Virus record (IMG/VR): IMGVR_UViG_3300047368_000187
Location: 1 to 25,434 of that record
Length of the DNA stretch: 25,434 bases
Reading direction: 5' to 3' (one strand)
DNA from: a virus
How positions within the stretch are numbered: position 1 is the stretch's first letter; each line of letters starts with the position of its first letter. Below, piece by piece: positions 1-24,772 of this stretch. Made by a program: the position numbers and the translations under genes. Below the pieces are notes generated by a model. The model was given only the letters and a program-made list of their open reading frames with translations, had not been told where the DNA came from and did no database searches.

Positions 1-2254
1 CAAAAGCCATTTCGGTAATGCCTTGCTCGGCAAGACGATTAGCCACCATGCGACACATTGTTGCATCTAACGAATGAACGATATTAGGCGCCGCAGCGCC
101 CGCCATTTTAGACGGCTGTATTTTATCGGTAGGTCTTCGTAGTCGACGCATCCAGTTATCAAAGGTGCGCACTGGGGTATCTTTTAACACCACGTACTTT
201 TGTTCAACGAGACAACCATCAGGCGTTTTCCACGTTAGGCTACGCTGTTGCTTGGCGAGTACTGTGGCGACCTCGCGGAAGTAGTCCATGATCTTGACCG
301 CTTCTACCACCACCGACACGCGCGCTTCGACTATCCAATCGCGCATGTAGCCGGCAAGCTTGTGCCTAGACTGTATGGGCGTCAGTCCCTCAAACTCTGC
401 GGTCTTGGGAATCGGTAGTCCATCGCAATGACGATCAGCCACTAGCTGTTCTCGTATGCCTTCGCGAGTAACGCCATACGCTGTTGTCATGACAGCACGC
501 TTCACAACCTTGCGAGCTTTTGCTTCGTGCTGCATTAGTGTGTCCCATGACATAGCGACCGCCTTCATCTCCGTAGAGAACGTGCTGTCCGACAAGTGCG
601 ATTTGATTATTGACTGCACGGATCGAGCGACCTCCACGTAGAGGTCTTGCCTGGTCGGCGCAGACGTGCAGTTCGTCTTTTCCGCACCGACTTGGTCCTT
701 TCCCAAAAGCGAAAGGATCTGTAGTCCGTTACACGTACCGTCTACTGCGATCGGTATATGGCTTACGAAAGCTGTTGGGTCCGATGACCGTAAAGCGCGC
801 ATAAGCTCCATACACACCGCATAGAATGAAGCTGGCTCGTCCGCTCGGGCGCACAGTGCTAGGGCGACCTTATCGTCGTCAAACTTTAAAATTTGCGGTA
901 CGAGTTCGTCGATAAAGTCCACCCGCTCAGACAACGACAATTTGTCTTTGCCGTAGCAGTTCGCCGCATGGATCATCAAGGCGTTTAGTCCGTTTTCACC
1001 AAGCTGTGTACCGTTATAGAAACGAATCAGCGCTTTGCTAATATCGTCGCCCTGGTTAGTAAGCATTTGGTTTGACGGATAAAGACGGCCCCTAAAATCA
1101 AAGCTGTGAGGTTGCCAGAAGGGCTGACCACACAGCTCTTGTGCGTGAAGCATCTGACGACGGAACGTAATCGCCTTCGAGTTTTGAGACACAAATCGTG
1201 CGCTTTCGTCTTGAAATTCCTGACGTGCGGCCGCTTGGTCTGACTCGCTTAATGTTTCCCACAAATGCTTTGGTAGACGTTGTGGTTTCTGTAGCGGAAC
1301 CTGTGGCGCTAGTTGAGGGTTGCGTAGCAGGAATCCGCGAACTTCGTCGTTGATGTCCCAGGCAGTCCGTTGGATGGTGTTAAGCGCTTTTATTGCTTCG
1401 GGCGATGGCGTCAACTTATGAGGATGCCACTCAGTTCTATATACAGAGTGTTGCACCATGTAGTAGCCGCCCTCAAGCCGTCCGCTCTCTTGATTTATTG
1501 ACCAGTCTCTTGGGGGAACGCGCATTGGTTTTTTAACGGGCGATGATGTTGCGGCGAGGGCGTGTAGCGAATCGACGTCAGACAAAAAATCATCTGTCCA
1601 ATAGACTGTTTGCGCTTCGGCTTTACCTCGGCTACCTGTTTGCCGTAGCTCAATGATGTTGGGGTGCGTTAGGGTCAGGCAGTCAAGAAGCACGGCACCA
1701 ACACTCAACAACACTTTCTTTTTTTCCCAGGCTTCGTCTAAATTTAACGACTCTTTGATCCGCTTTTCTAAATTGGTGATAAAACGCTTGTGTTGGACTT
1801 TGCTACTTAATACGTGCGCGTTTTTCTTCAGGAAACGAGTTGCGTATTTTCGGTCTTCTGAGACCCATCTCGTAAATCTAATTTGATGGATGTAGGCCAT
1901 GCCGACGGCAATAGCGACTTGTTGATAGGTAGGCGCTTTGCTACCTGATAGTTGCTGCATTGTAGTTGTAACGACAGTGATCGCGCCTTCGAGCGGGTCA
2001 GTCATAGGTAGTAGACGTTGCCAATCTTGCTTTTGCCCAGGCTGAAACAGTTTTGCTTCAGCTTCCTCTTGCCGTTGTCTGATGGCTTCTGCCAGTGGTT
2101 CTGCTAAATCGAAAAGTAAACGCTGACCTACCTTTGTATCTTGTAGGTCTAACTTCTCAATACTTTCTAGATACGCTTGCTCGGCTTCAGAATACATCTT
2201 TGCCTCCCACAAACACTCTACTAACTCGTAATCACTTGGAGTCGTACCGCTCAT
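1..2254 (-). CDS. T7-type single-subunit RNA polymerase, 3' end cut by window edge
   Basis: Phage DNA-directed RNA polymerase, which would transcribe phage genes from its own promoters. Translating the minus strand from the ATG at 2254 gives 751 uninterrupted codons to the left edge. The Shine-Dalgarno is AGGA in GGCAGGAAACT-ATG. Palm and fingers motifs of the T7 family appear in order: FDFRGRLYP (T7 DWRGRVYA), VDGTCNGLQ with Asp505 (T7 D537), RKVVKRAVMTTAYG with Lys585 and Tyr593 (T7 K631 and Y639), WKTPDG near 679, and APNIVHSLD with His727 and Asp730 (T7 D812). The Lys-Tyr spacing of 8 equals T7. The window stops just before the expected HDSFG motif, so perhaps 50 residues are missing. The stretch matching the T7 specificity loop (about 680-705) is shorter and unlike T7, so a different promoter is expected. 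Divergent from the repressor-integrase operon. Confidence 0.96.
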   Translation of the reverse strand, partial: MSGTTPSDYELVECLWEAKMYSEAEQAYLESIEKLDLQDTKVGQRLLFDLAEPLAEAIRQRQEEAEAKLFQPGQKQDWQRLLPMTDPLEGAITVVTTTMQQLSGSKAPTYQQVAIAVGMAYIHQIRFTRWVSEDRKYATRFLKKNAHVLSSKVQHKRFITNLEKRIKESLNLDEAWEKKKVLLSVGAVLLDCLTLTHPNIIELRQTGSRGKAEAQTVYWTDDFLSDVDSLHALAATSSPVKKPMRVPPRDWSINQESGRLEGGYYMVQHSVYRTEWHPHKLTPSPEAIKALNTIQRTAWDINDEVRGFLLRNPQLAPQVPLQKPQRLPKHLWETLSESDQAAARQEFQDESARFVSQNSKAITFRRQMLHAQELCGQPFWQPHSFDFRGRLYPSNQMLTNQGDDISKALIRFYNGTQLGENGLNALMIHAANCYGKDKLSLSERVDFIDELVPQILKFDDDKVALALCARADEPASFYAVCMELMRALRSSDPTAFVSHIPIAVDGTCNGLQILSLLGKDQVGAEKTNCTSAPTRQDLYVEVARSVQSIIKSHLSDSTFSTEMKAVAMSWDTLMQHEAKARKVVKRAVMTTAYGVTREGIREQLVADRHCDGLPIPKTAEFEGLTPIQSRHKLAGYMRDWIVEARVSVVVEAVKIMDYFREVATVLAKQQRSLTWKTPDGCLVEQKYVVLKDTPVRTFDNWMRRLRRPTDKIQPSKMAGAAAPNIVHSLDATMCRMVANRLAEQGITEMAF

Positions 2255-2654: not shown

Positions 2655-2996
2655 ATGAACGCGAGTAAGAAAGTCGGTAACGGCAATAGACCGCATAAAA
2701 CGACTACAGAAAGGCGCAAGCGCTTAGGGGCGATAATCAAAGAACAGCGCCAAGCACAAGGTTACACTCAAGCACAGTTTGCCCGGTTAGTTGGGCAAGA
2801 ATACTTCACAATGATCAGCCAGGTGGAACAGGGCGTAGTGCGCATACCACCGCATGACACTGATAAGTGGGCTTTAATGTTAGGCGTAGACACACAGGCG
2901 TTTGCGCAAGAGTGCGTAAAGGCGTACGAAAGTCTTGAGTATTACCACGCGATCTTTGGATCGAACGCAGAGGCGCCTTTTACAGGTAAAAAATGA
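2655..2996 (+). CDS. XRE-family (CI-like) transcriptional regulator
   Basis: A 113-residue DNA-binding protein with a central helix-turn-helix of the XRE/Cro-CI type, roughly residues 22-78. The second helix is TQAQFARLVG (38-47) and the recognition helix is FTMISQVEQG (51-60). The N-terminus is basic and the short C-terminal tail has no LexA-like peptidase, so RecA-driven self-cleavage is not expected. The Shine-Dalgarno is AGGAAGG ahead of the ATG. The stop codon overlaps the integrase start as ATGA, so the two are translationally coupled. Being first in the integrase operon and divergent from the phage RNA polymerase, it is most likely the lysogeny regulator. A direct excision or integration-control role is an alternative. 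Confidence 0.85.
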   Translation: MNASKKVGNGNRPHKTTTERRKRLGAIIKEQRQAQGYTQAQFARLVGQEYFTMISQVEQGVVRIPPHDTDKWALMLGVDTQAFAQECVKAYESLEYYHAIFGSNAEAPFTGKK

Positions 2997-4054
2997 AGGT
3001 ATACAAAGACAATAAGGGGCGTCACGGTAAGTGGCGCGCTCAAATAAACGGGCGCTGGAAGACTATAACAGCTACCACAGAGGAATTTGCTGTAGTTGAG
3101 GCAGAGCGTTTACTGAAAGAGGCTGCCATTGTTACTCAAGGTGCGTGGCTGTCGTTGGTAAAACAGTACTTACGCTACAAAGAAACTAAAGACCCCAATC
3201 AAGCAACAAGACCGAAGTGGCGCCAAACGAAGTTAGAGCTTGGCGTCTTTGCGCGGAAGTTCGACACGCTTTGTGATCCTCGTAACGTGCAGATGGATCA
3301 CTTCCCGTTATGGTGGGATGAGCTGACACGCTATCAACAAGACGCGGTCAAACCTGAGTTTAATCGCTTTATGAAATGGGGGTTGCTACGGCGCCACTTT
3401 GTTTTAGATACAAACCCAGCCCCGTTGCTCGATAAGAAAGAGCAGCCGGAAAAGCAGCGAATGAGACTTACAGTAGAAAACTATAGGCTCGTGCTCGACG
3501 AAGCTATAGCTAGGGGCTACAGGGCTTTGGCTTTAGCCATACAATTTAGCTATGCAACTACAATGCGCCGCGCTGACATACTTAACCTTACTTTTGACAA
3601 CATACAGGATGGCGGTCTCAATGTTGTGGTCGGTAAATCTAGCGCGCAGAGAGGTGACGTAAATGCTGTACGGTTGCGCTGGGATTTTACTGAGCACCCG
3701 CATATTTTAGAGCTAGTAAAACAGTGCAACTTACTGTCACTAGAGCATGACAACTGTCCTTACCTAATTAGTCAGCCGGGTCGCCCATCAAAGCATAAAG
3801 AACACCTGTATCAGATGATTCATAGAGAGTGCTCAGAGCAATTTACAGAGTGTAGTAAAGCTGTGCATCCAGGCGCTGACAACTATCCGACATTTCATGA
3901 AGTACGATCATTGGCGGGTGCTATGCTAGAAATGCAGGGTGTCGAGGTTGAGGAAATACGTTCTGTAATGGCGCATACCGATAGTAAAACAACAGCGTTG
4001 TACCTTGCCGGCCACGCACGTCGCTTTTTGTCCGTTAAGGTCAGCAATCAGTAG
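2993..4054 (+). CDS. int: Tyrosine-family site-specific integrase
   Basis: A 353-residue tyrosine recombinase that would integrate and excise the phage. The C-terminal catalytic domain (about 155-345) shows the expected residues: Arg192 in TTMRRADILNL, a possible Lys215, His302 and Arg305 in FHEVRSLAG, His328 in VMAHTDSKTT, and the nucleophile Tyr337 in ALYLAG. The His328-Tyr337 spacing of 9 is normal for the family. The N-terminal part (residues 1-50) resembles an arm-binding domain and is followed by a helical core-binding domain (50-150). It is the second gene of a two-gene operon with the regulator. It is followed by 205 bp holding repeated TTGTAC motifs and an anticodon-arm palindrome (its likely attP), then by a tRNA-Gly gene. 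Confidence 0.95.
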   Translation: MKVYKDNKGRHGKWRAQINGRWKTITATTEEFAVVEAERLLKEAAIVTQGAWLSLVKQYLRYKETKDPNQATRPKWRQTKLELGVFARKFDTLCDPRNVQMDHFPLWWDELTRYQQDAVKPEFNRFMKWGLLRRHFVLDTNPAPLLDKKEQPEKQRMRLTVENYRLVLDEAIARGYRALALAIQFSYATTMRRADILNLTFDNIQDGGLNVVVGKSSAQRGDVNAVRLRWDFTEHPHILELVKQCNLLSLEHDNCPYLISQPGRPSKHKEHLYQMIHRECSEQFTECSKAVHPGADNYPTFHEVRSLAGAMLEMQGVEVEEIRSVMAHTDSKTTALYLAGHARRFLSVKVSNQ

Positions 4055-4075
4055 TAATTATAGGAGTTATATATA

Positions 4076-4233
4076 TTTTGTACGGCAGCAAAGGACAACT
4101 TGTACCCCCTTTGTACCGTACAAAAACCCAATAGCGCGGGAAAAAACTTACAGTAAAACAGTATGTTAAAAGGCGTTTTTGTACCCACAACCTTGCCAAG
4201 GTTGTAGTTACAACCGTTTTTATACCGTTGTAC
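4076..4233. other. Putative attP region with repeated integrase arm-type sites
   Basis: The 205 bp between the integrase stop and the tRNA contain no gene. TTGTAC occurs five times on the plus strand (4078-4083, 4100-4105, 4111-4116, 4179-4184 and 4228-4233) and once inverted as GTACAA (4118-4123). Four of the plus-strand copies and the inverted copy lie to the left of the palindromic core at 4186-4204, and one plus-strand copy lies to the right. The first copies are spaced 22 and 11 bp apart, close to whole helical turns. A 10-bp inverted repeat, TTTTGTACGG (4076-4085) with CCGTACAAAA (4116-4125), encloses part of the set. This is the layout of an attP with arm sites on both sides of a core. 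The assignment is by pattern only. Confidence 0.55.
4186..4204. repeat. Putative attP core: tRNA-Gly anticodon-arm palindrome
   Basis: CACAACCTTGCCAAGGTTG contains the loop and stem of a tRNA-Gly(GCC) anticodon arm (CAACC-TTGCCAA-GGTTG). It is part of a perfect 9-bp inverted repeat around one central base (4187-4205). Thirteen bases, ACCTTGCCAAGGT, recur exactly in the tRNA at 4288-4300. Tyrosine integrases that use tRNA genes often cross over in the anticodon loop, with the symmetric stem as core-binding sites. Outside the arm the flanks do not match a tRNA. The arm GGTTGTA (4200-4206) can also pair with TACAACC (4209-4215), giving competing hairpins. Confidence 0.55.
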
Positions 4234-4259
4234 TGTAGTTGTTTTAGGCCAAAAGATAA

Positions 4260-4335
4260 GCGGGAATAGCTCAGTTGGTAGAGCGCCACCTTGCCAAGGT
4301 GGAGGTCGCGAGTTCGAACCTCGTTTCCCGCTCCA
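4260..4335 (+). tRNA. tRNA-Gly (anticodon GCC), complete with encoded CCA
   Basis: A 76-nt cloverleaf. The acceptor stem is GCGGGAA with TTCCCGC. The D arm is GCTCAGTTGGTAGAGC. The anticodon stem CCACC/GGTGG encloses the loop TTGCCAA, with anticodon GCC at 4293-4295. The T arm is GCGAG-TTCGAAC-CTCGT with one G-U pair, followed by discriminator U and CCA. It closely resembles the enterobacterial tRNA-Gly(GCC) as I recall it, differing mainly in the anticodon stem. It lies downstream of the integrase and putative attP, and only 2 bp from the stop of a convergent phage gene. It may replace a host tRNA-Gly broken by integration, or may itself be the attachment site. Confidence 0.96.
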
Positions 4336-7363: not shown

Positions 7364-7623
7364 CAGTCAGTCCAAATAGCGGTGCAGATGTCCTGTACTA
7401 ACTGCATGTGTCCGCTAACGTCTGTCGCAACCTGCGTTTCGTCACCAGCGTCATCAACCGTAGTCGTGTAACGAGAAAGCCTGTGTGAAACTTCTTTGTT
7501 CACGGGCAAGTCGTCGTCTGACGGATCGTCGAAAGTGTAGGTATACAGAACCATTAGTTCTGGGTCAGGTTGTGTGTCTTGGATTTCTATTCGATAAATA
7601 GATTTGGTACTAGTTATTGCCAT
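7363..7623 (-). CDS. Small protein following the giant fibre (86 aa)
   Basis: 86 residues (MAITSTKSIYRIEIQD...), acidic, with a beta-rich first half (IYRIEIQDTQ, LMVLYTYTF) and a helical end (QLVQDICTAIWTD). The ATG at 7623 is preferred: it overlaps the end of the giant fibre gene by 14 nt and has GAGGA 8 nt upstream. A TTG two codons earlier would be too close to that site. Small genes of this kind commonly follow fibre genes in marine phages, as I recall. A fibre-assembly or tail-accessory role is possible but unproven. Confidence 0.65.
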   Translation of the reverse strand: MAITSTKSIYRIEIQDTQPDPELMVLYTYTFDDPSDDDLPVNKEVSHRLSRYTTTVDDAGDETQVATDVSGHMQLVQDICTAIWTD

Positions 7624-10600
7624 CTTCAAGTTCCTCTATGCGCTTGTTTAAATCTTTAACAGTTTCTACTAGGAGTCCAATGATTGCCTGGTAGTCGACT
7701 GACTTCATGGTTTCGCTATCTCTGATGCTGGTTTCTTTCACAATGTTAGGCATGATCTGCTCAACCTCTTGAGCTATGACCCCGCCTGAGTGTTCCCCAG
7801 ACTGCTTCCAATCAAACTCATAGCCCGAAATTGCTTTAATTTTCTCAATAGGACTTTGAATAGCTTGGATATTAGTTTTCTGGTTGATGTCAGAGATGCT
7901 GGTTGTGCTGTACGCGGTGATGTTGCCTGCACACTCTAAGTCGCCTCCTGACTTAACACGCACAGAGTCAATGATGTCGACGTAGTCTGATGTACCCTCT
8001 ACGCAGTCAATCATCTCGACATTGCCTGCTGTAATGCGGACACGATCCACCTCAAATCTTAAATTCGTACCGGCATTGCTGGTATGGCGGAGGTACTGAT
8101 TCATGTATATGTCGGAGGTAAAGGTGACTTCACCAGTCGCAGTGTCATTAGCGTCGCTACGAATAAATGACGAGGCATGCAACCCATCTACAGTGTCAGC
8201 ATTGGTGCTGGTAGTTTGGACGCTGACGGATGAAACAATGAACTCACACTCAGCGGCCTCAATAGTGCAAATGCCGTCTTCGTTATACGCGTAGTTGCCA
8301 ATAGAGACAGTATCGTTAGCTGTCAAATACAGCATCGTCTCTATTTTGTTGTTTGAGTATTTGCCATAACTCGATCCACGATCGTAGTCGTAGGTACGCG
8401 TACTAACAATTTCACTCCCGTTTTTCTCTACATAAGCTCGCACAGTGTTCCGCGCAGACGAAGATGCGTTCGCGTAGACCATGTTGGCGTAGACCTTGTA
8501 CCAGCCAGTAGTTGCGACAGTAACAACACCGCTTGAGTGCGAAAACGTTGTGCTGTCGCTATGCTCTTCAAGGTTAAAATCGACAGTAAACTCATTTGCC
8601 GCACCTTGCGCTATTGCTGCATTGACATTCGATTTCAAATGGCAAACTTGCGTGTCGTAGCTTGCACTTGTCAGTACAGTGCTGCCGTTTGAGGTTATAG
8701 TGCCTTCAAAATCAGCGTTACCAGACTCGTCAATCAAAAAGGTCTGAGTCGTAGTGTTTGCGCTGTTGTCGTGCCACTGGAATTGAAGCTTGCCCGTACT
8801 CGCACCTCTGACGATGTACTTATCATTTGCGTCAGAAAATGAATTACTGTCCGTGAAAGCGAGCGTCGGTGACGTGTTGTTGATGTATATGTCATCAACA
8901 TCAGTGCCACCCGTTATGGTCAATTCGGTACTAGTGATTTTACCGCCAGCTACTATAGTGCCGATATTTTTTAGGTTTCTAGTATCGCCTTCGACGATTT
9001 GATTAGAACCAACCCAGTAACCATTTGCGCTACTCGTACCAGCTAAAACGTAACCGAAATTAGCTGACAAGTTTCCGTTAACGCCGATGCTTCCGGTCGT
9101 CATATTAAGGTTGCCAGCGACAGTTAAGTTGTTAGCAATAACATCGCCGTCAGACTCAATTCTTTCTATGCCGTTAACTACCACACTGTTGGCGGTAAGA
9201 ACGCCTGGAGTCGTTATGTTAAATCCGCTTTGCTGCGTAAGGTGCGACCTGAGTTCTACTTGTGCATCAGCAGTTCCGAGGTACAACTTTGAAGCACTAA
9301 AGTCCCGCCAGATAAAATTAGTAATGGAGTCAGTCGTGTCTTGTATAACAAAGTCGACATCGTTGGCTTGTAAGGTCAATTCACCACTTGCTGAACGCAG
9401 TGTTTTACCACTAGCAATTGCTATCCCGGACCCGTCTGCTTGGAAAACTGCATCTGTTTGTACAGCCAAACCGTCAGTTACGTCTGACTTCACCTCAAAA
9501 TACATAGTGGCAGCAGAGCTAGAGTCTGTGTTGACCTCAATACGTGCTGCATTTCCGTCTTGTTCGGGCACACCGTCTTCGTGGTTAAACGTTACATTGG
9601 CGTTGCCGTAGCCGTCGTTAATGGTCAAAGCAACGCCGCCAGAACCTTCGCCAGACCTTATATTGTCAGAGGAACGGAACTTGCCGGTTGTTTTGTAATC
9701 ACCTGTACCCGATGTTTTGCCTGTTAGGTTGTTAAAAGCGGTCGCTTGATTGACGGTTGAGCCGTTGAAGTACAAAGCGCCACCCACATTGTAAAGTTTG
9801 TTGGTGGTTGTTGATGGCGCGCCGTTGCTAAGTGTTATCTCATCGCTGTAAAGCACATCGGCACTTACAGGCTCGTTAAGCGTGATTGAGCCGGTCATAA
9901 ACTCTGCAAGATCGGTCGTGTCGTCAGCTTTCCTGAACCTGTGTATATCGTTGATGTAACGATTCATTAGGTCAGTATTGCCGCCGCCACCTATTGAGAT
10001 AGCTAAATCACCATCCGGGTTGTTGATTTTGGTGTAGGTGTTGTTATCCAGATCAATGACTACATCTAGGGTGTTGTCATGCTTAATGGCAGTGAAGATG
10101 CCGTTGCGATCTGAATTGACGACTGTTGTGCCAGAGACGTTAAATTCGCTGTTGGTTCTGACCGTGCCAGCAAAGCGGTTTTCACAGTCTGAGACAATGA
10201 AAACGCCGTACTTGCCGCCGCTTACGTTATTAGTGCCTTCATAGCCTCCGTAAAACAGATACGCATTAGCTGCTGTGACGTTACCGCCACTGTCATCGTC
10301 CCAAGTGGCGCGTACTCCAAAGATGTTATTAACTGTTTGTGCTTGCCCTGGGTCGTCAGTTTCGACATCAAAGAAACCACCATGGAGCGAGCCGCAATTT
10401 TTATCCTGTGAAGTAGTCAGATGCACCTTAGAATGAGTGCCGAAGAATGCAGTTATGTCACCTGTGCCCTGACCGTAGCCATAAGCGACACCGCGCAGAG
10501 CGTAAGCGTTTGAGACACGCCCAGCGGTGTGTTCATCTGCAACAGCTTGACCATAGACACCGACAACCTCACTGACTGTGGAAGCACCGTTTTGACCCTC

Positions 10601-13600
10601 TGCGTAACCAAAGACGCCATAGACCGCATCCGAGTCGCCGGTAACTCGCACGTTAGCCTCAATACCTCTAACTCTGTGTTCGTTACTTGTGTCACCGCCC
10701 GTCGCGGAGCTATCAAGGTCAACTAAAATAGAGCGATGCGTGTTGTCTCCTGTGTGCGCTTCTGAACCACTGCAATTGTGGTCGATAAACAAAGCGTTGA
10801 AGTCTGTATTGGAAATAGTATCGTCAGCGCGGATGCGTAGCATCTCAGTTTGATTGGTGTTGACTATGTCAATTTTGTCAAATTCAGAGTTGCCAGTGGC
10901 ATCGATAGCGCCACTTGTTATCGTCCCAAATGACGAAGCGCCCGTGCTAGTGATAGCCCCGCTACTAATGGTTCCTATATTTTTAAGATTGCGGGTGTCG
11001 CCTTCAACTATTTGATTAGAACCAACCCAGTAACCATTAGCGCTACTCGTACCAGCTAAGACGTAACCAAAATTAGCTGACAAGTTTCCGTTAACGCCGA
11101 TGCTTCCGGTCGTCATGGTGAAGTTGCCAGCAACAGTCAAGTTGTTAGCAATAACATCGCCATCAGACTCAATTCTTTCTATGCCGTTAACTACGACGCT
11201 GTTTGCCGTCACGGTGCCAGAGCTTGTGATGTTGCCCGAGCTTATGGTGCCTACGTTTGAAAGATTGGCGTCTTCGTCAAATATACGAGAGTCGCCTATG
11301 CCTATACCTTTGTGAAAATAACCGACGCTTTCATAAGGCTCATTTGGAAGCATAATGCCCGTTGCTGGGTATACATAAATTGCAAGAACGTATGTTTTTG
11401 CGGTGTTTTCCATCCAAACTTTAAGGGTGTTACTTCCTGTAACGACATCCTCCGTGATGTCTATGACGTGCCATGCGTCTGTGTCATTTTCGCCGTCAGC
11501 CGGTGCGGCATCTAAATATTCAAGACGATACTCAGTACCACCGTTGACGCCTAACTTCGGACTATTTCCAGATTCCGCGTCATTAGTTTTAACCTTTGCA
11601 AACCACCTAGTGCCATGCCTGTTATTAACCGTGAATGTAAAGGTTTGATCAGCGGCAGCAGTGGCGTATGTTTGGTTTTCATCTAAATTAATAGAGCCGT
11701 TCCACGCCAAAGGTAAATCAGCGTCTCCATCAATTGAGCCGTCTGCTGGTTCAAACGCAGAAACTCGCATGCCGGGCTTAAAATCGTAAGAGCCATTAGT
11801 TGTTGGCGTTGGGTCTGCGCTGCGGCTACCTAAAGTAAACGTGGTATGCCCACTGGTCGAAAGGAGCGTCAGATTGTTACCAGTAATGTCTTTAGCGGTA
11901 ACGTTGCCAGTCTGATCGATAGTCACTGCCTCGTTCAAAACGAGATCAGCACTACCGCCATTGCCACTGTTAATGTAAGACTTAGTTTCATCTACCCAAA
12001 GGCGTATCGATCGATTGGCAGAAGTGCTTAACACTGCAATGCCTGCTTCGTCATTGTTAGCAGCCTGATTTACTTGCAGCGATCCGTAGTTATTTAGGCC
12101 GTTAGTGGCTCCTATCTGAGCCTGGACGACGTTTTTAATGTGACGTGCGCTAGTGATAACTTCTTGAGTGCCGAACTCAAGACCGCCTGTGGCTATACGG
12201 ACAGATGTTTTGGGCTCTAAAATTATACGCGCAGGATCGGCAATACCGGCAGCATCTAAGCCAAGATAGCCGCCATAAGTTCCACCAGCGTTAGTGCTTA
12301 TAATAAGGTCAGAATTATCAATCTCATCGCCTGTGTAACCTATGCCGCTGGCATTACCCTCAGTATTTTTGAATAGTATCTTGCCGCTAGCGCCGCCACC
12401 GCCACCGTTGTTAGTGTCGCTAATGTACAAAATCGGATTGCTTGCATCGACCGTGACAGTAGACCCGCTAATTGTTCCAAGAGTTGCGTTACCTGCGCTG
12501 TTAATACGGACAACGTCGTTAAGCTTAAGGTTGCCCGTGATGTTGATATCGGGCGCAGTAAGGTTTTGCGTGCCGTCATATAGGCCGACCATGTGATCGG
12601 CGTGGACTTTCTTAAAGTTGGTTGTGTTCCATACTCCCACTAACCCAGAGCCTAATGTCTTGGTAGTTCCTCCGCCGTCGCCTAAGAAATAAATGCCAAA
12701 CGGATACCCACCGTCCATATCGCCTTCGTCGGACATAAGGCCAAGAGTGTCATTAGCATCCACAATCATTTGATAAGCGTATTGAAAGTCTGTGTCGCTT
12801 ACTTCGCCGTTTTCGAGCCGCAGTGATTTAGCATACAAAAAGCCATTGTTAGTGCTTGCTGTAATGTTGCCTGATGAAGTGATGTTCCCACTGCTTATCG
12901 AGCCAATGTTCTTGAGATTTCTGGTATCACCTTCAACGATCTGGTTACTGCCAACCCAAAAACCATTAGCGCTGCTTGTACCAGCTAAGACGTAACCAAA
13001 ATTAGCTGACAAGTTTCCGTTAACGCCGATGCTTCCGGTCGTCATGGTGAAGTTGCCAGCAACAGTTAAGTTGTTAGCAATAACATCACCGTCAGACTCA
13101 ATTCTTTCTATGCCGTCAACTACGACACTGTTTGCCGTAACGGTGCCAGAGCTTGTGATGTTGCCCGAGCTTATGGTGCCTATGTTGCTCATATTGGCAC
13201 TACCGTCGATAATTGTAGTGGCACCTAGTTTAAATCTACCGCCTGATATAGCATCTGCTACTTCGAGATCGCCATCGCCTGCATTCGTACCTGAGCCAGC
13301 TTCGATAGAGACATTGCCAAAAAACGTAGCCGACAGTGGATCGGTGTGGTTATTAGAGCCGCGCCCATGCAACTGGAACTTTATGTAATCACTGCCTTGA
13401 TCGCTTTCTATGAATTGTAAATCGTGGTCTGGATAGACTGACGCAGTTGGGACGTTGCGAACTTTCCACATAACATCCCTAGCGACGTTGTTATTCGTAT
13501 CCCATCCGCTTGCAAGAAACTCAAGATCGCGTGAGGCGTAAATCTGATTAGAAGCGTCAGCAGTTCCTTCTTTGTTTAGGCGAATATTGCCTGACGCAGT

Positions 13601-16600
13601 AACGGCGCCCGAGCTTATGGTGCCTAGCGTCGCATTACCTGCGGCAGTTATGCGACTAACCCCGTTTATTTGAAGGTTTCCAGACAGCAAATCCATGCCG
13701 CCGCCGCCGTCAAATTGTGCAACGCCCGATCCGTTGTAGTTAATTACAACGCCTGACGAACCATCGTAAATGGTAATGCCGTTATTCTGCTGGGCGTTGT
13801 TTATTGTCCAATCGCCAGCCGCTTCATTAATGGTAAGGTTGTCACTATCGCCTGTTAGTGTTAGCTCGTTAAATGTACCTCTACCTTCGACATCAAGATT
13901 ACCAGACGCATCTAAAACTAACTGTGAGTCACCGCTACTACGGTCTATTCTCACTCTAAAATCGGTGCTTGCTACTTCGTCATCTTCGTCAAGCGCAATG
14001 CTTAGGCCGCCATTATTAAGCGTCTTGATGCCCGTATTCATTGAAGTGATGTCAGTGTCTGTAAACAAAACACTGTTGTTGAAGGTGCCTGTGCCCGTGC
14101 TGGTAATGGCACCTGATAAAATTGTTCCTATATTTACTAGGTTCCTAGTCGATCCCTGTATAACCTGAGTCGCTCCGACGTAATAGCCAAGCGTTGTTGA
14201 GGCATTACCCGCTGTAATTGATCCTGCGGTAGTAACCTGACCACTGCTAGTGATTGCCCCAGATGTAATCGTGCCGACTGTAATATTGTTGATTGTTGTG
14301 TTTCCGCCTGACGTTACCTCGGCAAGCGTTGGCGGATGATACGTGCTAAAAAACTCTGTCCAAGAGTAAAATGCTCCGCTATCTGCGCGACGGACAAACA
14401 GCCTGCCGCCGCTTGATCCACCCCAAGCCAGTTGAATCTTCTGGTTGGGGTCGGTCATCTGAAACAGATTGAAATACGCATATCCTGGACTATTTGATGG
14501 CTGACTGTTTGACCACTTGTAAAATCCGTCCGTGAGGCTGTCAAGGTCATCGGTACTGGTAAGCCCGTCGCCGCCAATATCAATGTTTGCAAACGAGCTT
14601 GTACCTGTTGAGGTGATTGCTCCGCTGTCTACCGTACCTATATTTTTTAAATTTCGAGTATCACCTTCAACGATCTGATTTGATCCGACCCAAAAACCAT
14701 TAGCGCTGCTTGTACCAGCTAAGACGTAGCCGAAGTTAGCTGACAAGTTTCCGTTAACACCGATGCTGCCCGTTGTCATGGTGAAGTTGCCGGCAACAGT
14801 TAAGTTGTTAGCAATAAAGTCACCGTCTGACTCGATCCTTTCAATACCGTCAACGACAATTGAATCAGCAGTTACGCTCCCGTTAACGGTAATTCCGCCG
14901 GTTGCAACTGTCAGCAAATCGGCTGTCGTATTATTGCCAAAGACCATTTGACCTGACGCAGACCCCACTTTGAAGGTGTGCTTGGCATTGGCATTTGCGC
15001 CAACGTCGCTAGTAGTGATGGTGAGACGGCGCTGGCTTGCTGTGCCGCCTGTAAAATATGTATCGCCTGACGCTGCGCCGTTAATGTCCAGCGCAGACAT
15101 ATAAAAGCCTTCGCCTTGCACATCGTTGTCGTAAAAGTCAGCCATGCCCTGATAGAACTGTGCCAACTCATAGGTGCCGTCTGCTTTGTAGAAACGGTGA
15201 ATGTCGTTGCTATACGTATTTTTGGCGTCAGTGCTTCCGCCGCCGCCGATCTTTATGGCCTCTACGCCGTCGGGATTATTGATCTTGACGTAGGTATTGT
15301 CGTCGAGGTCGATGACTAAATCGGAGGTATTGTCGTGCTTAATACCTGTAAGTGTAGCTGCGCGGTTATTGTCAATTACTAGCGCGCCGTTTACGTCAAA
15401 CTCTTTAGCCCGGACGCGTCCGTTAAATTGGCTTGGAACATCATCCGCTATAAAGACGCCATAAGCGTTTGTGTTTGGGTAGAAAGTTGAGTCTTGCAAA
15501 TTACCCTGGTAATCGCCATAAAATAGATAGCTGTTGTTAACAGTGTGGTCAGTACCAGTATCGTTTTCGTCAATCAGCGCGTAGACCGCATACATGTTGC
15601 TGATGGTGTGCGCGTTGTTTGTGGCATCGAGTTGTACTTCGTTCCACGAGCCGTACATGTGCGTAATGTCGCTTGTATTACCGCTTTGAGTAGATGTTAT
15701 ATTCGCAGCACCTACTAGTTTTGCGATGGTCGTTCCACTGCTGCTGTTAGCTACAGCTTGATTAAGTGCACCATAAGCGTTAGTCACTTCTCCTGTACCG
15801 CTGCTTTGAGCAGTAGCCTGGCTGTGTGACCCGTACATGCTAGCAACAGTGCCGCCGGAATTTAAAGCGAGGCCGTAAGAGAACAGCCCACGCAAGGCAG
15901 CCATGTTGGCTGAACCATTTTGGCGTGCGTAAAGGTACGCTGCGTCTAGTCTGTCGGCTGTCCCGTCAGCGAGGTTACGCGCATCAACATACAGCGGAAA
16001 TAAACGCGTCTCGTTGCTCGTATCGCCTCCCGAATCCGAAGAATCGTAGTCGATATACAATCCGTACTTGTAGTTGTCAGTGGTGTGCGTTTCCGTACCG
16101 CTGAAATTAAAGTCGAGAAGCATCATTGTATGGTTTTGATTGCTGATGGTGTTGGCGGCTGTGTAATGAAAGCCATTGGTTCTGTTGTTGCCAGGAAGTA
16201 CTTGGAATTTAGTCTGCGCCTTCAACGTGTCGGTGCTTCCGTCTAGCGACAGGTATGTTTTAGTGCCACCACTGCCGTCATCGCTTTCAAACCTAATATC
16301 CATGTCGTCAGCAAGGTTGCGTATGTATAAATTGCCTGACGTATTATCGAGGTAGGTCGTACCTGCGTGATAGATCTTGAAGTCGTTGTCTGTGCCGAAA
16401 CTCAGTTTGTCGTTTTCTGTAAAGTTTGTGTCGCCAGTAATAGTGCCGCCAGTTAGCGGTAAGTGACCTACCTGGCTGTAGGTGTACGCTGTGTTGGCAT
16501 TGGTTGAGCTACCGCCTGACCAATCGACTGTAGATGTAAATGTGGCCGCTCCAGTGCTTGCAAGTGTTAAGCTCGTAGAAGTACTACCCTCACTATCGTC

Positions 16601-19600
16601 ATACCACTGAAACTGTAAATTATCGGTATGACCGCGAATGATGTACATATCATTTGCGTCGGTAAAGCTGTTGGTGTCAGTAAAGGCTAATGTCGGTCTA
16701 GAGCTATTGATGTAAATAGACGCGTCACCTAAGTTTTGAGTTACTTCAAGCGTGCCAGTAACAGTGCCGCCTGCAAGCGGAAGGTGTCCCACTTGGCTGT
16801 ATGTATATGCAGTGTCGTAGTTGCCTTTGTCTGTATCTGTAAGATCGCCTCTGTGCCAAACGTCGTTGCCGTTCCATTGAAGTTTGTACGCTGTATTGTT
16901 CGGTACGAAATCTAGGTCTTGGTTGGCGGTATGCCATATCTGCCAGCTTGCCGAAGCGTTTCTCTTGAAGGTAAACAGGGTGCGGTTGCCGTCACTATCG
17001 CCGTTAATATCAAACCCGTTAGGGTTAAAGGTTAAACCTTTCGACGTGTCAATCTCGCCAGCGACGTCTAAGTTGCCGCCTATATCGACATTCTTGTTTT
17101 GATAAAGCTCCATCGTAATATCGGCAGTGGTATCACCAGCGGAGAAAATTAAACTGTCGTCACCGTTAGAATCGACCCACATCTCATACTGACCACCAGC
17201 CGTTTTAATCGTTAGGCCAGCGTCACGGTCGTATGGCGTTTCTATAAGTAATGTGTCCCGGTAGCCTGCGTCGTAGTCGTGATACAAATGCAGCGCAGGC
17301 GCGTTTATAGTTGATTTCGTTATCTTTGCGGGGAAGTTAAGTTCAAAAAGGTCGTTTGTTTCGTTCCAAGTCAAAGAGGCAGCCGTTGCGGTGTTGCGGT
17401 CTACAATAAGGCCAGCGCCGTCAGATAGTGCCTGCGTATTACCCGCGTTCACGGTTATCGTTTTGTCGACCACGTCGAGATCGGTTACCGAGTACGAATT
17501 AATGTCACCTGTGATATTCAAGGCACCTTGCAGTGATAGGTCACCCGTGATCGTAAGGTCAGCGTCAAACGTGTCATCAACGTCAGAGCGTAGGAATTTT
17601 GTCGAATCGAGGTTGTCTAAATAGTCAGCGTTACCGCCCGTGGAGACGACCCCTGTGACGCCCTCGTTGGCTTCTACCGTGAACGGTACTGTCTGCCCAG
17701 TAAATGCCGTACCGACGCCTGTGACGCGCACACGGAACTGTAGATTTGTACTGTCGGGTAGGTCGTTGCCTGTCCCCGTCGTAAAGGTCTTACTCACATC
17801 TCCGTTAAAGTAATAAACGAGATACGTGTAGCCGTAGTAACTCGACAGGTCGTACTCAATATACTGTAGCGTATGCGTCTTAGTCGCTGAGGTAAGATCG
17901 GTAAACGTCCCGTCAGCGGACACTTCGAAGTTGAGCGTGGCTTGCGCCTGTGCGGTTGTGTAGTTGGTAGTGGCGTAAAAAAAGTGATTCGATAAAAACT
18001 CGACTTCTACGTCAGCCGTTCCGTGATCGAACTTATCCGACGACGTACCGACCGTGACCGTACCGCCTGATGCGGTAAAGCTACCCGACGCTTCTTTGTA
18101 GTCACCATTAGAGCCGCCAACAGACGTTGCCAATGCGCCATATATCTCGTCGAGTGCGTCCTGTGAGAACATCGCTCGCGTGATAGATCCTGCCGCCATA
18201 CTACTAGCCTCAAGATCACCAAGGACAACGAGGTTTTCTTTTGCGGTGATTACGTCCGCCGTGATGTTGCCGTCTACAGTCAGCAGGTTGTCTGACGGGT
18301 TATATAAAAACTTGTCTTTAAGGCTAAACTTGCCCGTGTTGTCGAGGTAAAAGCCTGTATCTGTAGCTGCCCAATTACCTTGTCCAGCGTATAGCTCTGC
18401 CGATGTGATCGTAATACCACCAACTGAACCACCGGTTATCGTGCCAGCGTTATCACTTATGTCAGCTAGGTTTGCGATCGTTAGTTTGTTAGCGACGAGG
18501 CTACCGTCAATAATGATGTCGCCATCTATTTCAGCAGGTGCTGTGCCGGACGGCACCTTATACAAACCGCGCACTTCCTGCGCCGTCAATGCTCTGTTGT
18601 AAGCGCGAATCTCTGTAAACTTACCGTTGAAGTTTTCACTGCCCGTACTGATGTTTGTTTCCGTGTTACAGCCAATTACAACAGGGCGCGAGGAAACCAC
18701 CGGTGTATATGACTCTGTGCTAACAAGCTCGCCGTTCACATATCCAGAAAGAGTGCCGCTACCATCTTCACTCAAGCAGAAGTGATGCCACTCGCCCTGC
18801 GCGACGACGCCCATTGATTCAGTGCCTGGCTCACCGAAAAGCGTTATAGCTTGATCACCAGACTGACTTTGATTGAGTATTACCGCCCACCCATCAGAAG
18901 CGTCCCTTGTAAGAATGCGAGTTTGACTGGTGCCTGATGAAGTTTCAGACTTAAACCAGAATGACCATGCAAAGCCGTCAGCCGTTTCCAGCGCATCCGC
19001 GTCTGTGTCGTTAAGTAGTATAAATCCACTGTTGGTGTTGCTTTGAACTGACTTAGCTGATGGCGAGTCTGTGCTTATTGTCGGCGCTGTCGAGCCTCTA
19101 TGAATTCCCGTCTTACCCGAAATGACTTCTTGTAGCTCTTCCTCTCCGTCGCCGTCTAAATCCTTAATAGAGTTACAGGGCCAATAGTGTGCTAAACCGT
19201 CAGACGGTAGTTCGTGTAGCACGTCGTCTCTGTCTAAGTCAGCAAGCTCGCCTTCGTTGTTTGTCGCGTTGTCCTCAATGCCGTCAAGACGTGTTCCGCT
19301 GACGGCAGGAAGCGTAAATGTTGTCGTTGTGTACGAGCTTGGTAGTGTCAGACCATCAGCGTTTGTTACTAAGTAACGTACGCGTATATCGATGTCTTGA
19401 TTGTCGATGCCTAGCTGAAACTTTGCTTTATCGGCCGTCTCGTCTTGAATAATCTGCGTGTTGTACTCGTCTGAGTTTGCAATAGCCCAGCCGACCTCAA
19501 TAGAGGTTGCTTCTTCAGGAACGTCACTAAATGGCACGACTAGTGACACTTGCGCGCTACCGTCGCTCAACGTAATGACGGCACTACTGACAGTGCCAAT

Positions 19601-21848: not shown

Positions 21849-24203
21849 CTAGAATGATGGGGCGACTAGATTCTCGTCAGAGATTGAGCGGATCATGTCG
21901 GTGAGCTCGTTACGACGCTGTTCGAGCGCGCCAAAGACGAGGTCAGGGTCAGCGACGCCGTTGATTTGTAGCGTCAACGGAGCGCCTGTAGACGGACGGT
22001 TGTTGCGGTCAGCAAGGAACGTAGTCAGGTCACGGTTAGCCCGTGAGCTTACGACTCGCTCGCCTCGTTCCAGCATGTAGGTGCCTGTTGAGGGCAATGA
22101 GTCCATACCGTCGTGTGCTTGTCCCTTCATGATGTCGCGTAATACCAAGCCAGTTTGCGCTGCGGTTATCGCCACCATTGGTAGGTTTGCTGGGAACGGA
22201 GCGGATGACCAGGCGTTCATAAGGGCTTTGCCTTGCATTACGATTGCTTCTTTCAGAGCTAGGGCTGTATTTAGCGCTGCTATTTTCTTTGAGCTCCGTG
22301 CGCCTGCCTGTAAAACGCTATCAAAAGTTGCATAACTTTGTACCATGCTACTGACACGACCTTTCACAGCCATCGATAAAGTGCCAAATTCTTTCTTTAC
22401 TTCTTGAATAGCCAGCTTCCAGCGTTCAGCCCAAGACATCTGTACGTCTTCTTTTGCTTCGGCTGGGCCTGCGTCAGCCGCATCTGGATCTGTATCGCCT
22501 CGCAGTGCTGCCCAGAAAGAACGGAAGCCCGGTATGGCTTCTAAGGCGCTTGTGCCGACGCCGCTTACGAACTCCGTAAAGCCCGTCTGTATATCAGCAA
22601 AATTAGGTAGCGCGCCCATTGCATTGCCAGCGCCGCCCATAACAGCATCAGTACCGGCGCCTAGTACGCTCATAGTGTCATTTTTCACACCTGCTAAAAC
22701 ATCTTGGAGGGAGTTGTACTTGCCGTCCTCACCCCTAAAATCCATTGCCTGATCGATTAGCCCTTGACCGGCAGCAAAGTTTGCTCCAGGCGCATTTCGT
22801 AAGGTGCTGATCTGGTTGTTAAGCGCTGTGTCGTCGTTGCCGACTGTGCCGCGAAGCTTTGCAGCTAGGCTATTCATTTTAAGCTTGTCCATAATGTCTG
22901 CGACGTTACGGACGACCTTGCGGCCCATAAGTTTTAGCTGAAGCGGTATTTCTTTAAAGGCATTTATGATGGTCTCGCCAACGCCCTTACCAATAAGGCT
23001 CACGCCTTCCATTAACTGACCAAATTTTTCTAGTAAATTAAACTTGGTGCTGAGGTAGGCAATTCCCGCCGCAAGCATCGCAATGCCAGTGATCATTAGG
23101 CCTATGGGATTAAGTAGCATCAATGCGCCAACGCGCACTAATCCTTGAATAAGCATCGCTAAAGCTGTGCCGGCTAAGACCATAATTCGCTGAGTGAGCG
23201 TGATGATTGCAGGCACCATAAACGTTGTGATTTGTACGGTCGCAAACAGAGCGGTATAGGCAAACTTGCCAAGTCCCACGACTGCGCCTGCTACTGTCAT
23301 TACAGTGAACGCGGTCATTCCTACGAGAAGTCTACCTAACAGCAACGTAGCCATGCCTGCTAAAGCAAGTGTGACGATGTGCACGTTGTCGGCTAAGACG
23401 CCAATGGCTTGCGACACTTTAGGCACCAGATTAAAAGTTTGGTTGAGCCGGTCGACCATTTCTACGAACGCGTTACGGAATAGCGTTTTAGCCTGCCCAA
23501 GCGTTAGCGCCATCTTGCCGACAGCGGTATTTGTGCCTTCAAGCTTCTCCGTAAGAATTGGAATGATTGTTTCAGCAGTAAGGCCGCCTTCCTGTGCGAA
23601 CAGGCGTAGCTGTCCAACAGTCATGCCTAAGCCTTCAGCGAGCATCTGAGTCAACACTACGTTGTTCTCAGACACCGATCTAAATTCGTCACCACGTAGC
23701 GTTCCCGACGCTAAACCCTGGGCAAACTGTCGTGCTGAGTTAGCCGCTTCTGAGGCAGTCGTACCTGACATTAAGAATGAGTTAGCAACTACTTGCGTCA
23801 CCTTCGCTACGTCCTCCTGAGAGGTGCCTAGTGACTTTGTAGATACAGCGATGCGTTGGTATAGGGTGCCGACCGAATCGAGCTCAGAGCGGCTTTCCTT
23901 GGCTATACGCTTGATGTCTAACATGCCGTTCGCAACTTCACGCGTCGTATCGAACGTCGCGCCCATCTTGTTACGAAGGTTGACCATTTCGTCTGCTGCG
24001 CGCGCTACTTCCGCTACGCCAAAGCCGCTCGCTACGGTTGCGCCAAGCGCTGCCATCTGTCCTTGAAACATCATGGCTTCGCGTCGCATGCCGCTGCTAA
24101 AGCGTCTAAAACGTCTATCGACCTTGTCAATGTCTTTGCGGAACTGCGCTGTGTTGGCGCTAATGCGTACCGCTAACGTACGTAATACTGCTCCACTCAT
24201 CAT
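21849..24203 (-). CDS. Tail tape measure protein
   Basis: 784 residues from the ATG at 24203, chosen because it makes a 4-nt ATGA overlap with the previous gene and has AGGA upstream. Residues about 55-245 match the conserved tape-measure N-terminal region: DEMVNLRNKMGAT, LYQRIAVSTKSLG, VVANSFLMSGTTASEAANS, RQFAQGLASGTLRGDEFRSV, and EGLGMTVGQLRLFAQEGGL. Residues about 266-385 are strongly hydrophobic (several membrane-like helices), as expected of a protein that is ejected and may form a channel. The tape sets tail length. At roughly 0.15 nm per residue a tail near 118 nm is expected, which is an estimate only. A tape of this size between the chaperones and tail hub fits a siphovirus. Confidence 0.95.
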   Translation of the reverse strand: MMSGAVLRTLAVRISANTAQFRKDIDKVDRRFRRFSSGMRREAMMFQGQMAALGATVASGFGVAEVARAADEMVNLRNKMGATFDTTREVANGMLDIKRIAKESRSELDSVGTLYQRIAVSTKSLGTSQEDVAKVTQVVANSFLMSGTTASEAANSARQFAQGLASGTLRGDEFRSVSENNVVLTQMLAEGLGMTVGQLRLFAQEGGLTAETIIPILTEKLEGTNTAVGKMALTLGQAKTLFRNAFVEMVDRLNQTFNLVPKVSQAIGVLADNVHIVTLALAGMATLLLGRLLVGMTAFTVMTVAGAVVGLGKFAYTALFATVQITTFMVPAIITLTQRIMVLAGTALAMLIQGLVRVGALMLLNPIGLMITGIAMLAAGIAYLSTKFNLLEKFGQLMEGVSLIGKGVGETIINAFKEIPLQLKLMGRKVVRNVADIMDKLKMNSLAAKLRGTVGNDDTALNNQISTLRNAPGANFAAGQGLIDQAMDFRGEDGKYNSLQDVLAGVKNDTMSVLGAGTDAVMGGAGNAMGALPNFADIQTGFTEFVSGVGTSALEAIPGFRSFWAALRGDTDPDAADAGPAEAKEDVQMSWAERWKLAIQEVKKEFGTLSMAVKGRVSSMVQSYATFDSVLQAGARSSKKIAALNTALALKEAIVMQGKALMNAWSSAPFPANLPMVAITAAQTGLVLRDIMKGQAHDGMDSLPSTGTYMLERGERVVSSRANRDLTTFLADRNNRPSTGAPLTLQINGVADPDLVFGALEQRRNELTDMIRSISDENLVAPSF

Positions 24204-24772
24204 CGTCGTCCTGTGTTGATTTTGTACTTCCAAACGGCGACACGCCGCTTGAGCTCATCTCTGAATGCGTTACCAATTGACACTTCAAACCCGTCAAACG
24301 CCGGACGCATAAAGGGACGCTCTGGGTGAACGATGCCGAATATTGTTGGGTGTGTGGTGCCGTACTCATTTTGCAAAGCGTAGACTGGCTTACGGTCGCC
24401 TTTCTTAAACCCAGATTTGGTATCGCGCTTGTATGTAGACCTGTGTCTGCCTGAAACACCGGCCATCACAGAGGCGCCTCTCAGGCCTTTACGGCGCTTT
24501 GGCGCTCGCCCTAATCTGTTGGGGTTGTAGCCGACTAATCGCACGCTCTTAAGCAATGAGCCGGTGTCAGGGATGTCCTGCCGCACAATGTTGCCCTTTA
24601 CGCGCGCCTCGACAGGTTTCATTGCGTTGACCGCTGCTGTCTCACACTCGTCGCCAGCAAACTCGCCGGCCATGCGTTCCAAATCAACCCACATCGCATC
24701 AAGTCCCTCAAGCTTGAAGCGGTTGTAGACACCGTTACGGGTTTTAACGATGTCAAAGTCGTAGTTAGCCAC
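24200..24772 (-). CDS. HK97 gp10-like minor tail / tail-completion protein
   Basis: 190 residues. Residues 20-80 carry the family pattern FKLEGLDAMWVDLERM, AAVNAMKPVEARVKGNI and the PDTGSLLKSV box (69-77). The end has VYALQNEYGT (130-139) and RPFMRPAFD (152-160), typical of HK97-gp10 family proteins. The middle (85-125) is very basic. I chose GTG at 24772: GGAGG lies 6 nt upstream and it overlaps the T stop by 8 nt (GTGGCTAA). An in-frame ATG three codons earlier is too close to that site. Its place after the G/T chaperones, rather than before the tail-tube gene, is a little unusual. Confidence 0.88.
   Translation of the reverse strand: MANYDFDIVKTRNGVYNRFKLEGLDAMWVDLERMAGEFAGDECETAAVNAMKPVEARVKGNIVRQDIPDTGSLLKSVRLVGYNPNRLGRAPKRRKGLRGASVMAGVSGRHRSTYKRDTKSGFKKGDRKPVYALQNEYGTTHPTIFGIVHPERPFMRPAFDGFEVSIGNAFRDELKRRVAVWKYKINTGRR

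Follow-up and report, generated by a model that had tools for sequence, protein, structure and literature searches.

A conserved phage attachment module with a bare tRNA-Gly(GCC) anticodon-arm core and a complete tRNA-Gly, very probably serving tRNA-dependent lysogeny

Known systems and layout of the locus

Lysogeny that depends on a phage-encoded tRNA was proven in mycobacteriophages in 2024 (Guerrero-Bustamante and Hatfull, PMC10865867). These phages use a short core, leave the host tRNA unrestored and require a phage tRNA of the same isotype for lysogeny; the authors propose that the strategy occurs beyond actinobacteriophages, citing the Lactobacillus prophage Lj965. Sinorhizobium prophages like Mesorhizobium phage Lo5R7ANS insert in the middle of a tRNA-Leu(UAG) gene, inactivate it and supply a foreign tRNA-Leu(UAG) (PMC11476347).

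The stretch of DNA analysed here (the window) is a 25,434-bp virus record. Its integrase region very probably represents tRNA-dependent lysogeny, the principle of which is already known, and we are quite confident in the fuller reading that it is the attachment module of a temperate phage using this strategy, with a replacement tRNA most likely driven by a host promoter. The relevant features are as follows.

1..2254, minus strand: T7-like single-subunit RNA polymerase, truncated by the contig start; tblastn retrieves thousands of T7-like phage RNA polymerases
2655..2996, plus strand: XRE-type regulator (Pfam HTH_3, E 6e-6), overlapping int by 4 bp and adjacent to int in relatives too
2993..4054, plus strand: tyrosine integrase, int (Pfam Phage_integrase PF00589, E 5e-11)
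4100..4118, plus strand: arm-type repeats TTGTACCC / TTGTACCG, 95 and 84 bp from the core centre; GGTACA stands at equal, mirrored distances in relatives
4179..4186, plus strand: third arm-type repeat TTGTACCC, 16 bp from the core centre
4187..4205, plus strand: putative attP core, the bare anticodon arm of a tRNA-Gly(GCC), ACAACC-TTGCCAA-GGTTGT (ACAACCTTGCCAAGGTTGT); the same 19-mer is found in many tRNA-Gly genes, and the core is conserved in the clade
4202..4215, plus strand: arm-like repeat on the tRNA side, with TACAAC ending 18 bp from the core centre and mirroring the GTTGTA of relatives
4260..4335, plus strand: complete tRNA-Gly(GCC) with encoded CCA and anticodon stem CCACC/GGTGG (ARAGORN and Rfam, end at 4335/4332; Rfam 71.8 bits)

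The genes 3' of the int and tRNA region run leftward (lysozyme, structural genes and tape measure). An unusual combination of podovirus-type and siphovirus-type features characterizes a group of phage contigs: a T7-like RNA polymerase (1-2254 of the window, minus strand), a long-tail tape measure (TMP_3, 21849-24233, minus strand) and an integrase. A single open reading frame of 4556 codons (7610-21280, minus strand) probably encodes a giant tail fibre or host-recognition protein; it contains repeated modules and, judged by eye, an S74-like C-terminal end.

Like the window, Fionnbharth, LeBron, Cain and others described in PMC10865867 combine a tyrosine integrase with a short core (8-17 bp there) and an attP without a tRNA half, and their phage tRNA has the isotype of the gene hit at attB, which for the window is deduced from the core. 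In Fionnbharth, however, int and the tRNA are kilobases apart and on opposite strands, and the tRNA has its own promoter. Hosts of this type are actinobacteria, whereas that of the window phage is probably gammaproteobacterial, and those systems were established by experiment, whereas ours is predicted from sequence. The Lo5R7ANS type (PMC11476347) shares with the window the combination of a T7-like RNA polymerase phage with an integrase, but has two genes between tRNA and int. Searches by identity to their own tRNAs did not find a bare core in Lo5R7ANS or Fionnbharth. Gaia and Nebkiss (cluster X), which carry tRNA-Leu(CAA), resemble the window in having int, an attP with flanking arms and a complete sense tRNA on the int strand; in Gaia, arms stand on both sides of a sense anticodon-loop core and the tRNA-Leu(CAA) follows about 110 bp after it. 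They differ in their integrase, which appears to be of another group, in the use of tRNA-Leu instead of tRNA-Gly and in their 8-bp core. Finally, cousin gammaproteobacterial integrases at tRNA-Pro(GGG), tRNA-Ala(GGC) and tRNA-Val(GAC) belong to the same integrase family (~25-38% identity), and their likely target is the G/C-rich anticodon arm of the tRNA beside int. Unlike the window, they have an intact antisense tRNA beside int, and their integration module is without a spare tRNA.

The bare core and its mirrored arm sites

With the RNA polymerase (1..2254) as query we found 27 related viral contigs, and a search by integrase alignment gave 18 integrase-clade contigs with at least 66% identity to the reference member, a set that overlaps in part with the first. 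The window integrase is 44-48% identical to clade members, and the C-terminal motif PTFHE[IV]RSL is kept across the clade. The module itself is conserved: int, a bare core and a complete sense tRNA-Gly(GCC) occur in all 17 other clade contigs reaching the region, the order XRE-int-bare core-tRNA-Gly holds in every clade contig that extends that far, and, counted from where the int match ends, the 17-mer core of the clade starts at about +28.

A first-pass annotation of this DNA had described a stand-alone anticodon-arm palindrome between the integrase and an intact tRNA-Gly(GCC). Both elements are present, the palindrome at 4187-4205 and the tRNA as recognized by ARAGORN and Rfam. The annotation was also right that the core flanks match no tRNA half, that 55 bp separate the core from the full tRNA and that the anticodon stems differ (CAACC/GGTTG in the core, CCACC/GGTGG in the tRNA). 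Its palindrome of 19 bp needs amendment, as the letters given total 17 bp and reach 19 only with the flanking A/T or as CACAACCTTGCCAAGGTTG, a sequence common in gammaproteobacterial tRNA-Gly genes.

The 17-mer core is exact in the window, and matches with up to three mismatches arise by chance at 0.05 per shuffled window. The 19-mer CACAACCTTGCCAAGGTTG was found in 84 viral-contig stretches, mostly within whole tRNA-Gly genes. One point against the core as a match to host genes is that most clade cores deviate by 1-3 bases from the commonest host arm. Could the palindrome be a terminator or hairpin of the int transcript that resembles a tRNA arm by accident? An adjacent hairpin with a T-run, at 4200-4215 of the window between core and tRNA, does score as terminator-like, though it is weak (about -7 kcal/mol). 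However, the match to tRNA-Gly genes is exact over 19 bp, against the chance rate given above, the stem pairing of the core is broken in 8 of the 18 loci (clade and window) while the core itself is retained, and neither L201 nor L204 has a terminator-like site at the corresponding place, which together make this explanation scarcely credible.

Identity between core and target is confined to 17-19 bp, with non-tRNA flanks on both sides in the window and in the clade, as viewed from the attP side. Classical tRNA-restoring integration of the Islander type was rejected, as the core flanks match neither tRNA half in the window or the clade.

The arm-type repeats show where the integrase is likely to act. 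In the relatives (L196-L213), TGTACC/GGTACA repeats likewise lie 16, 84 and 95 bp from the core centre, with some contigs having fewer than all three, and a GTTGTA/GTTGTG motif lies 18 bp from the core centre on the side opposite these arms. The arms of the window are on the int side and those of the relatives on the tRNA side: across 4040-4260 of the window the entire set is mirrored with respect to int and tRNA, and its spacing is the same. Spacing between core and tRNA is 55 bp in the window versus 123-141 bp in the relatives. The middle base of the core is asymmetric (TTGCCAA, not TTGGCAA), and its orientation with respect to the tRNA is unchanged although the arms are mirrored. To test for inversion, the entire spacer was aligned locally in forward versus reverse orientation, but the near-palindromic arm motifs made this indecisive; the exact arm distances decided the matter. 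Such a mirrored attP with exact arm spacing constitutes a natural test of integrase architecture. In the relatives, short inverted repeats flank the att region.

Because the arm repeats keep their 16, 84 and 95 bp to the core while the distance and side of the tRNA change, we take attP to be the bare core (4187-4205) and not the phage tRNA, to the extent that sequence can decide. The alternative is a crossover within the complete phage tRNA, which would leave whole tRNAs at both junctions and nothing broken, with the upstream palindrome as a relic or regulatory site. The phage tRNA does adjoin int and has ACCTTGCCAAGGT in common with host tRNA-Gly genes, but the arm repeats track the bare core exactly whereas the distance and side of the tRNA vary, and in 18 of 18 loci the anticodon stem of the phage tRNA differs both from its own core and from the common host arm; we therefore consider such a crossover improbable. 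With the bare core as attP, the integrase would exchange strands between 4187-4205 and the anticodon arm in a tRNA-Gly(GCC) gene of the host, with TTGCCAA, the 7-bp loop (4193-4199), as the probable recombination overlap. Since the phage has no tRNA half beside the core, the host tRNA would be restored at neither junction, and the complete phage tRNA-Gly(GCC) at 4260-4335 would take over for the broken host gene.

The complete tRNA-Gly(GCC), its linkage to the integrase and the host target

Six distinct clade tRNA-Gly sequences are found across the 18 loci, with zero broken pairs, and pairs 27-43, 28-42, 51-63 and 52-62 vary with both sides changing in a compensatory manner. The clade tRNA-Gly is evidently under selection as a folded tRNA. 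Its presence also follows the integrase type. Among relatives of the same phage, those with a clade integrase have the tRNA-Gly in 13 of 13 cases and those with a non-homologous integrase in the same slot in 0 of 6 (Fisher p = 4e-5, not phylogenetically corrected). As it is absent from relatives with unrelated integrases, the tRNA-Gly is, by this comparison, part of the integration module. In L090-L092, L103, L104 and L107, close relatives of the phage, the slot that follows XRE and precedes the leftward genes is occupied by unrelated integrases; the integration module is exchanged as a unit.

Many phages have tRNAs that aid translation or replace tRNAs cut by host defences, and the viral loci with the core 19-mer include many phage tRNA clusters, so the tRNA-Gly might be an ordinary phage tRNA whose proximity to int is incidental. 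But it is the sole tRNA in the window, it is linked to one integrase type at a constant place and in a constant direction, and its isotype is that of the attP core, and we regard this view as very unlikely. Comparison thus supports the proposal of the first-pass annotation, in which a host tRNA-Gly(GCC) is broken by the phage and replaced from its spare copy; the support comes from 17 further contigs, core-linked arms, tRNA folding and integrase linkage.

The anticodon stems of the clade tRNAs (CCACC, ATACC and GTACC) are rare in hosts, a covering pattern being matched in 3 of 369 sampled gammaproteobacterial genomes. If the replacement tRNA had the host stem, it would be an integrase target too, and the altered stem probably shields it. 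Tandem integration of this kind was suspected by the authors of PMC10865867 in their plasmids.

On the host side, the first-pass annotation was right that many gammaproteobacterial tRNA-Gly(GCC) genes have the CAACC stem, which was found in 61 of 68 matches in 75 sampled genomes. A matching tRNA-Gly(GCC) was single in 55 of the 61 sampled gammaproteobacteria having a match, a count that reflects one pattern and probably in part draft genomes. The host of the window phage may have several tRNA-Gly(GCC) copies, which counts against the proposed mechanism. No clade prophage or lysogen was found in GTDB genome contigs or in samples of 391 and 369 genomes, the latter gammaproteobacterial and searched with the RNA polymerase. 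Prophage ends at a site unrelated to tRNA-Gly, or within 4260-4335, were accordingly not observed in these collections. Viral contigs had no match to an attL-type pattern (host 5' half plus phage arms); a pattern of T-flanked core plus tRNA also had no match, the clade cores being followed by other bases. Close integrases are absent from the collections (best 27% in phages, best 33-34% full-length in genomes), so no lysogen could be read, and with no lysogen, attL or attR found we infer attB from the core.

Two candidates, L006 (1330-2533) and L031 (2080-3284), were rejected as the same arrangement, their integrases being at most a marginal match. Each is the end of a phage or prophage in which the 5' half of a tRNA-Gly(GCC) leads through the same 19-bp core into non-tRNA DNA, with an integrase that belongs to another group about 90 bp away; they share the target gene with the window phage and carry the opposite half. 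L174 (974-2300), from a gammaproteobacterial MAG, has a cousin integrase whose neighbours are an intact tRNA-Gly(GCC), antisense and with a CAACC arm, and probable pgsA and uvrC genes. It represents a relative that restores the tRNA, at a target gene of the same kind.

Orientation and transcription in the predicted lysogen

The nearest tRNA 3' of int is sense in 17 of 17 clade loci and antisense in 42 of 42 cousin loci, where it is a tRNA for Pro, Ala, Val, Thr, Leu or Gly. Because core and phage tRNA share direction, aligning the overlap to a host tRNA-Gly gene gives a predicted attL end that would read host promoter, host 5' half, core, 55-bp spacer and phage tRNA; the other prophage end would hold XRE, int, core and host 3' half. 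Lysogens would thus have the phage tRNA 55-141 bp behind the host promoter and the severed 5' half. The large genes to the right of the phage tRNA run leftward, which leaves the 55-bp spacer and host DNA as the places for its promoter in the lysogen. Neither this spacer nor those of three relatives yielded a sigma-70-like promoter. The host tRNA promoter most likely drives the replacement tRNA. Two points speak against this: the weak terminator-like hairpin of the window lies in the spacer, and in a read-through transcript the host 5' half could rival the phage 5' half for pairing.

A rival view of this one step is that the phage tRNA is expressed from its own promoter, or from an XRE-int transcript before integration, so that the host promoter is immaterial. 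The Fionnbharth replacement tRNA has a strong promoter of its own (PMC10865867), the XRE-int transcript might extend into the tRNA before integration, and a promoter of another type, e.g., for the phage RNA polymerase, is possible. Once integrated, however, int and the tRNA would be at opposite prophage ends, and upstream of the tRNA there are just 55 bp of phage DNA with no sigma-70-like promoter, as in the three relatives. We consider separate expression a real but lesser possibility.

Inverted attP sites are also mentioned in PMC10865867; the att region of Gaia and Nebkiss is inverted relative to that of their restoring relative, and in Courthouse, the restoring relative of Gaia, the tRNA half is antisense. 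The Gaia lineage and the window clade seem to have switched tRNA direction independently, which supports a functional reason for the change. In Gaia (L289, 18834-19203) the replacement tRNA-Leu is sense behind a sense core, and host promoter use may apply there as well, of which the available part of PMC10865867 makes no mention for Gaia or Nebkiss.

Host promoter use can be extended to a complete scheme of promoter capture. The attP core and replacement tRNA would be locked in direction, so that integration sets a promoter-less tRNA behind the promoter of the broken host gene, and the XRE-int operon would be transcribed into the severed 3' half and on into the host tRNA genes beyond it. The arrangement would have originated independently in Gaia and in this gammaproteobacterial-type clade, and survived the inversion of the attP arms in the window. 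For this scheme as a whole we see the balance as even.

So far, tRNA-dependent lysogeny has been proven only in actinobacterial phages, and our findings extend it to a conserved clade whose members are uncultured, aquatic and equipped with gammaproteobacterial-type tRNAs. The less explored part is the geometry, in which the phage tRNA would stand behind the host tRNA promoter and the severed 5' half, and which suggests why some phages hold a tRNA next to attP: the repair would be paid for by the host promoter. Lysogens would depend on the prophage for an essential tRNA, a dependence that bears on prophage loss, domestication and the presence of foreign tRNA genes in bacterial genomes.
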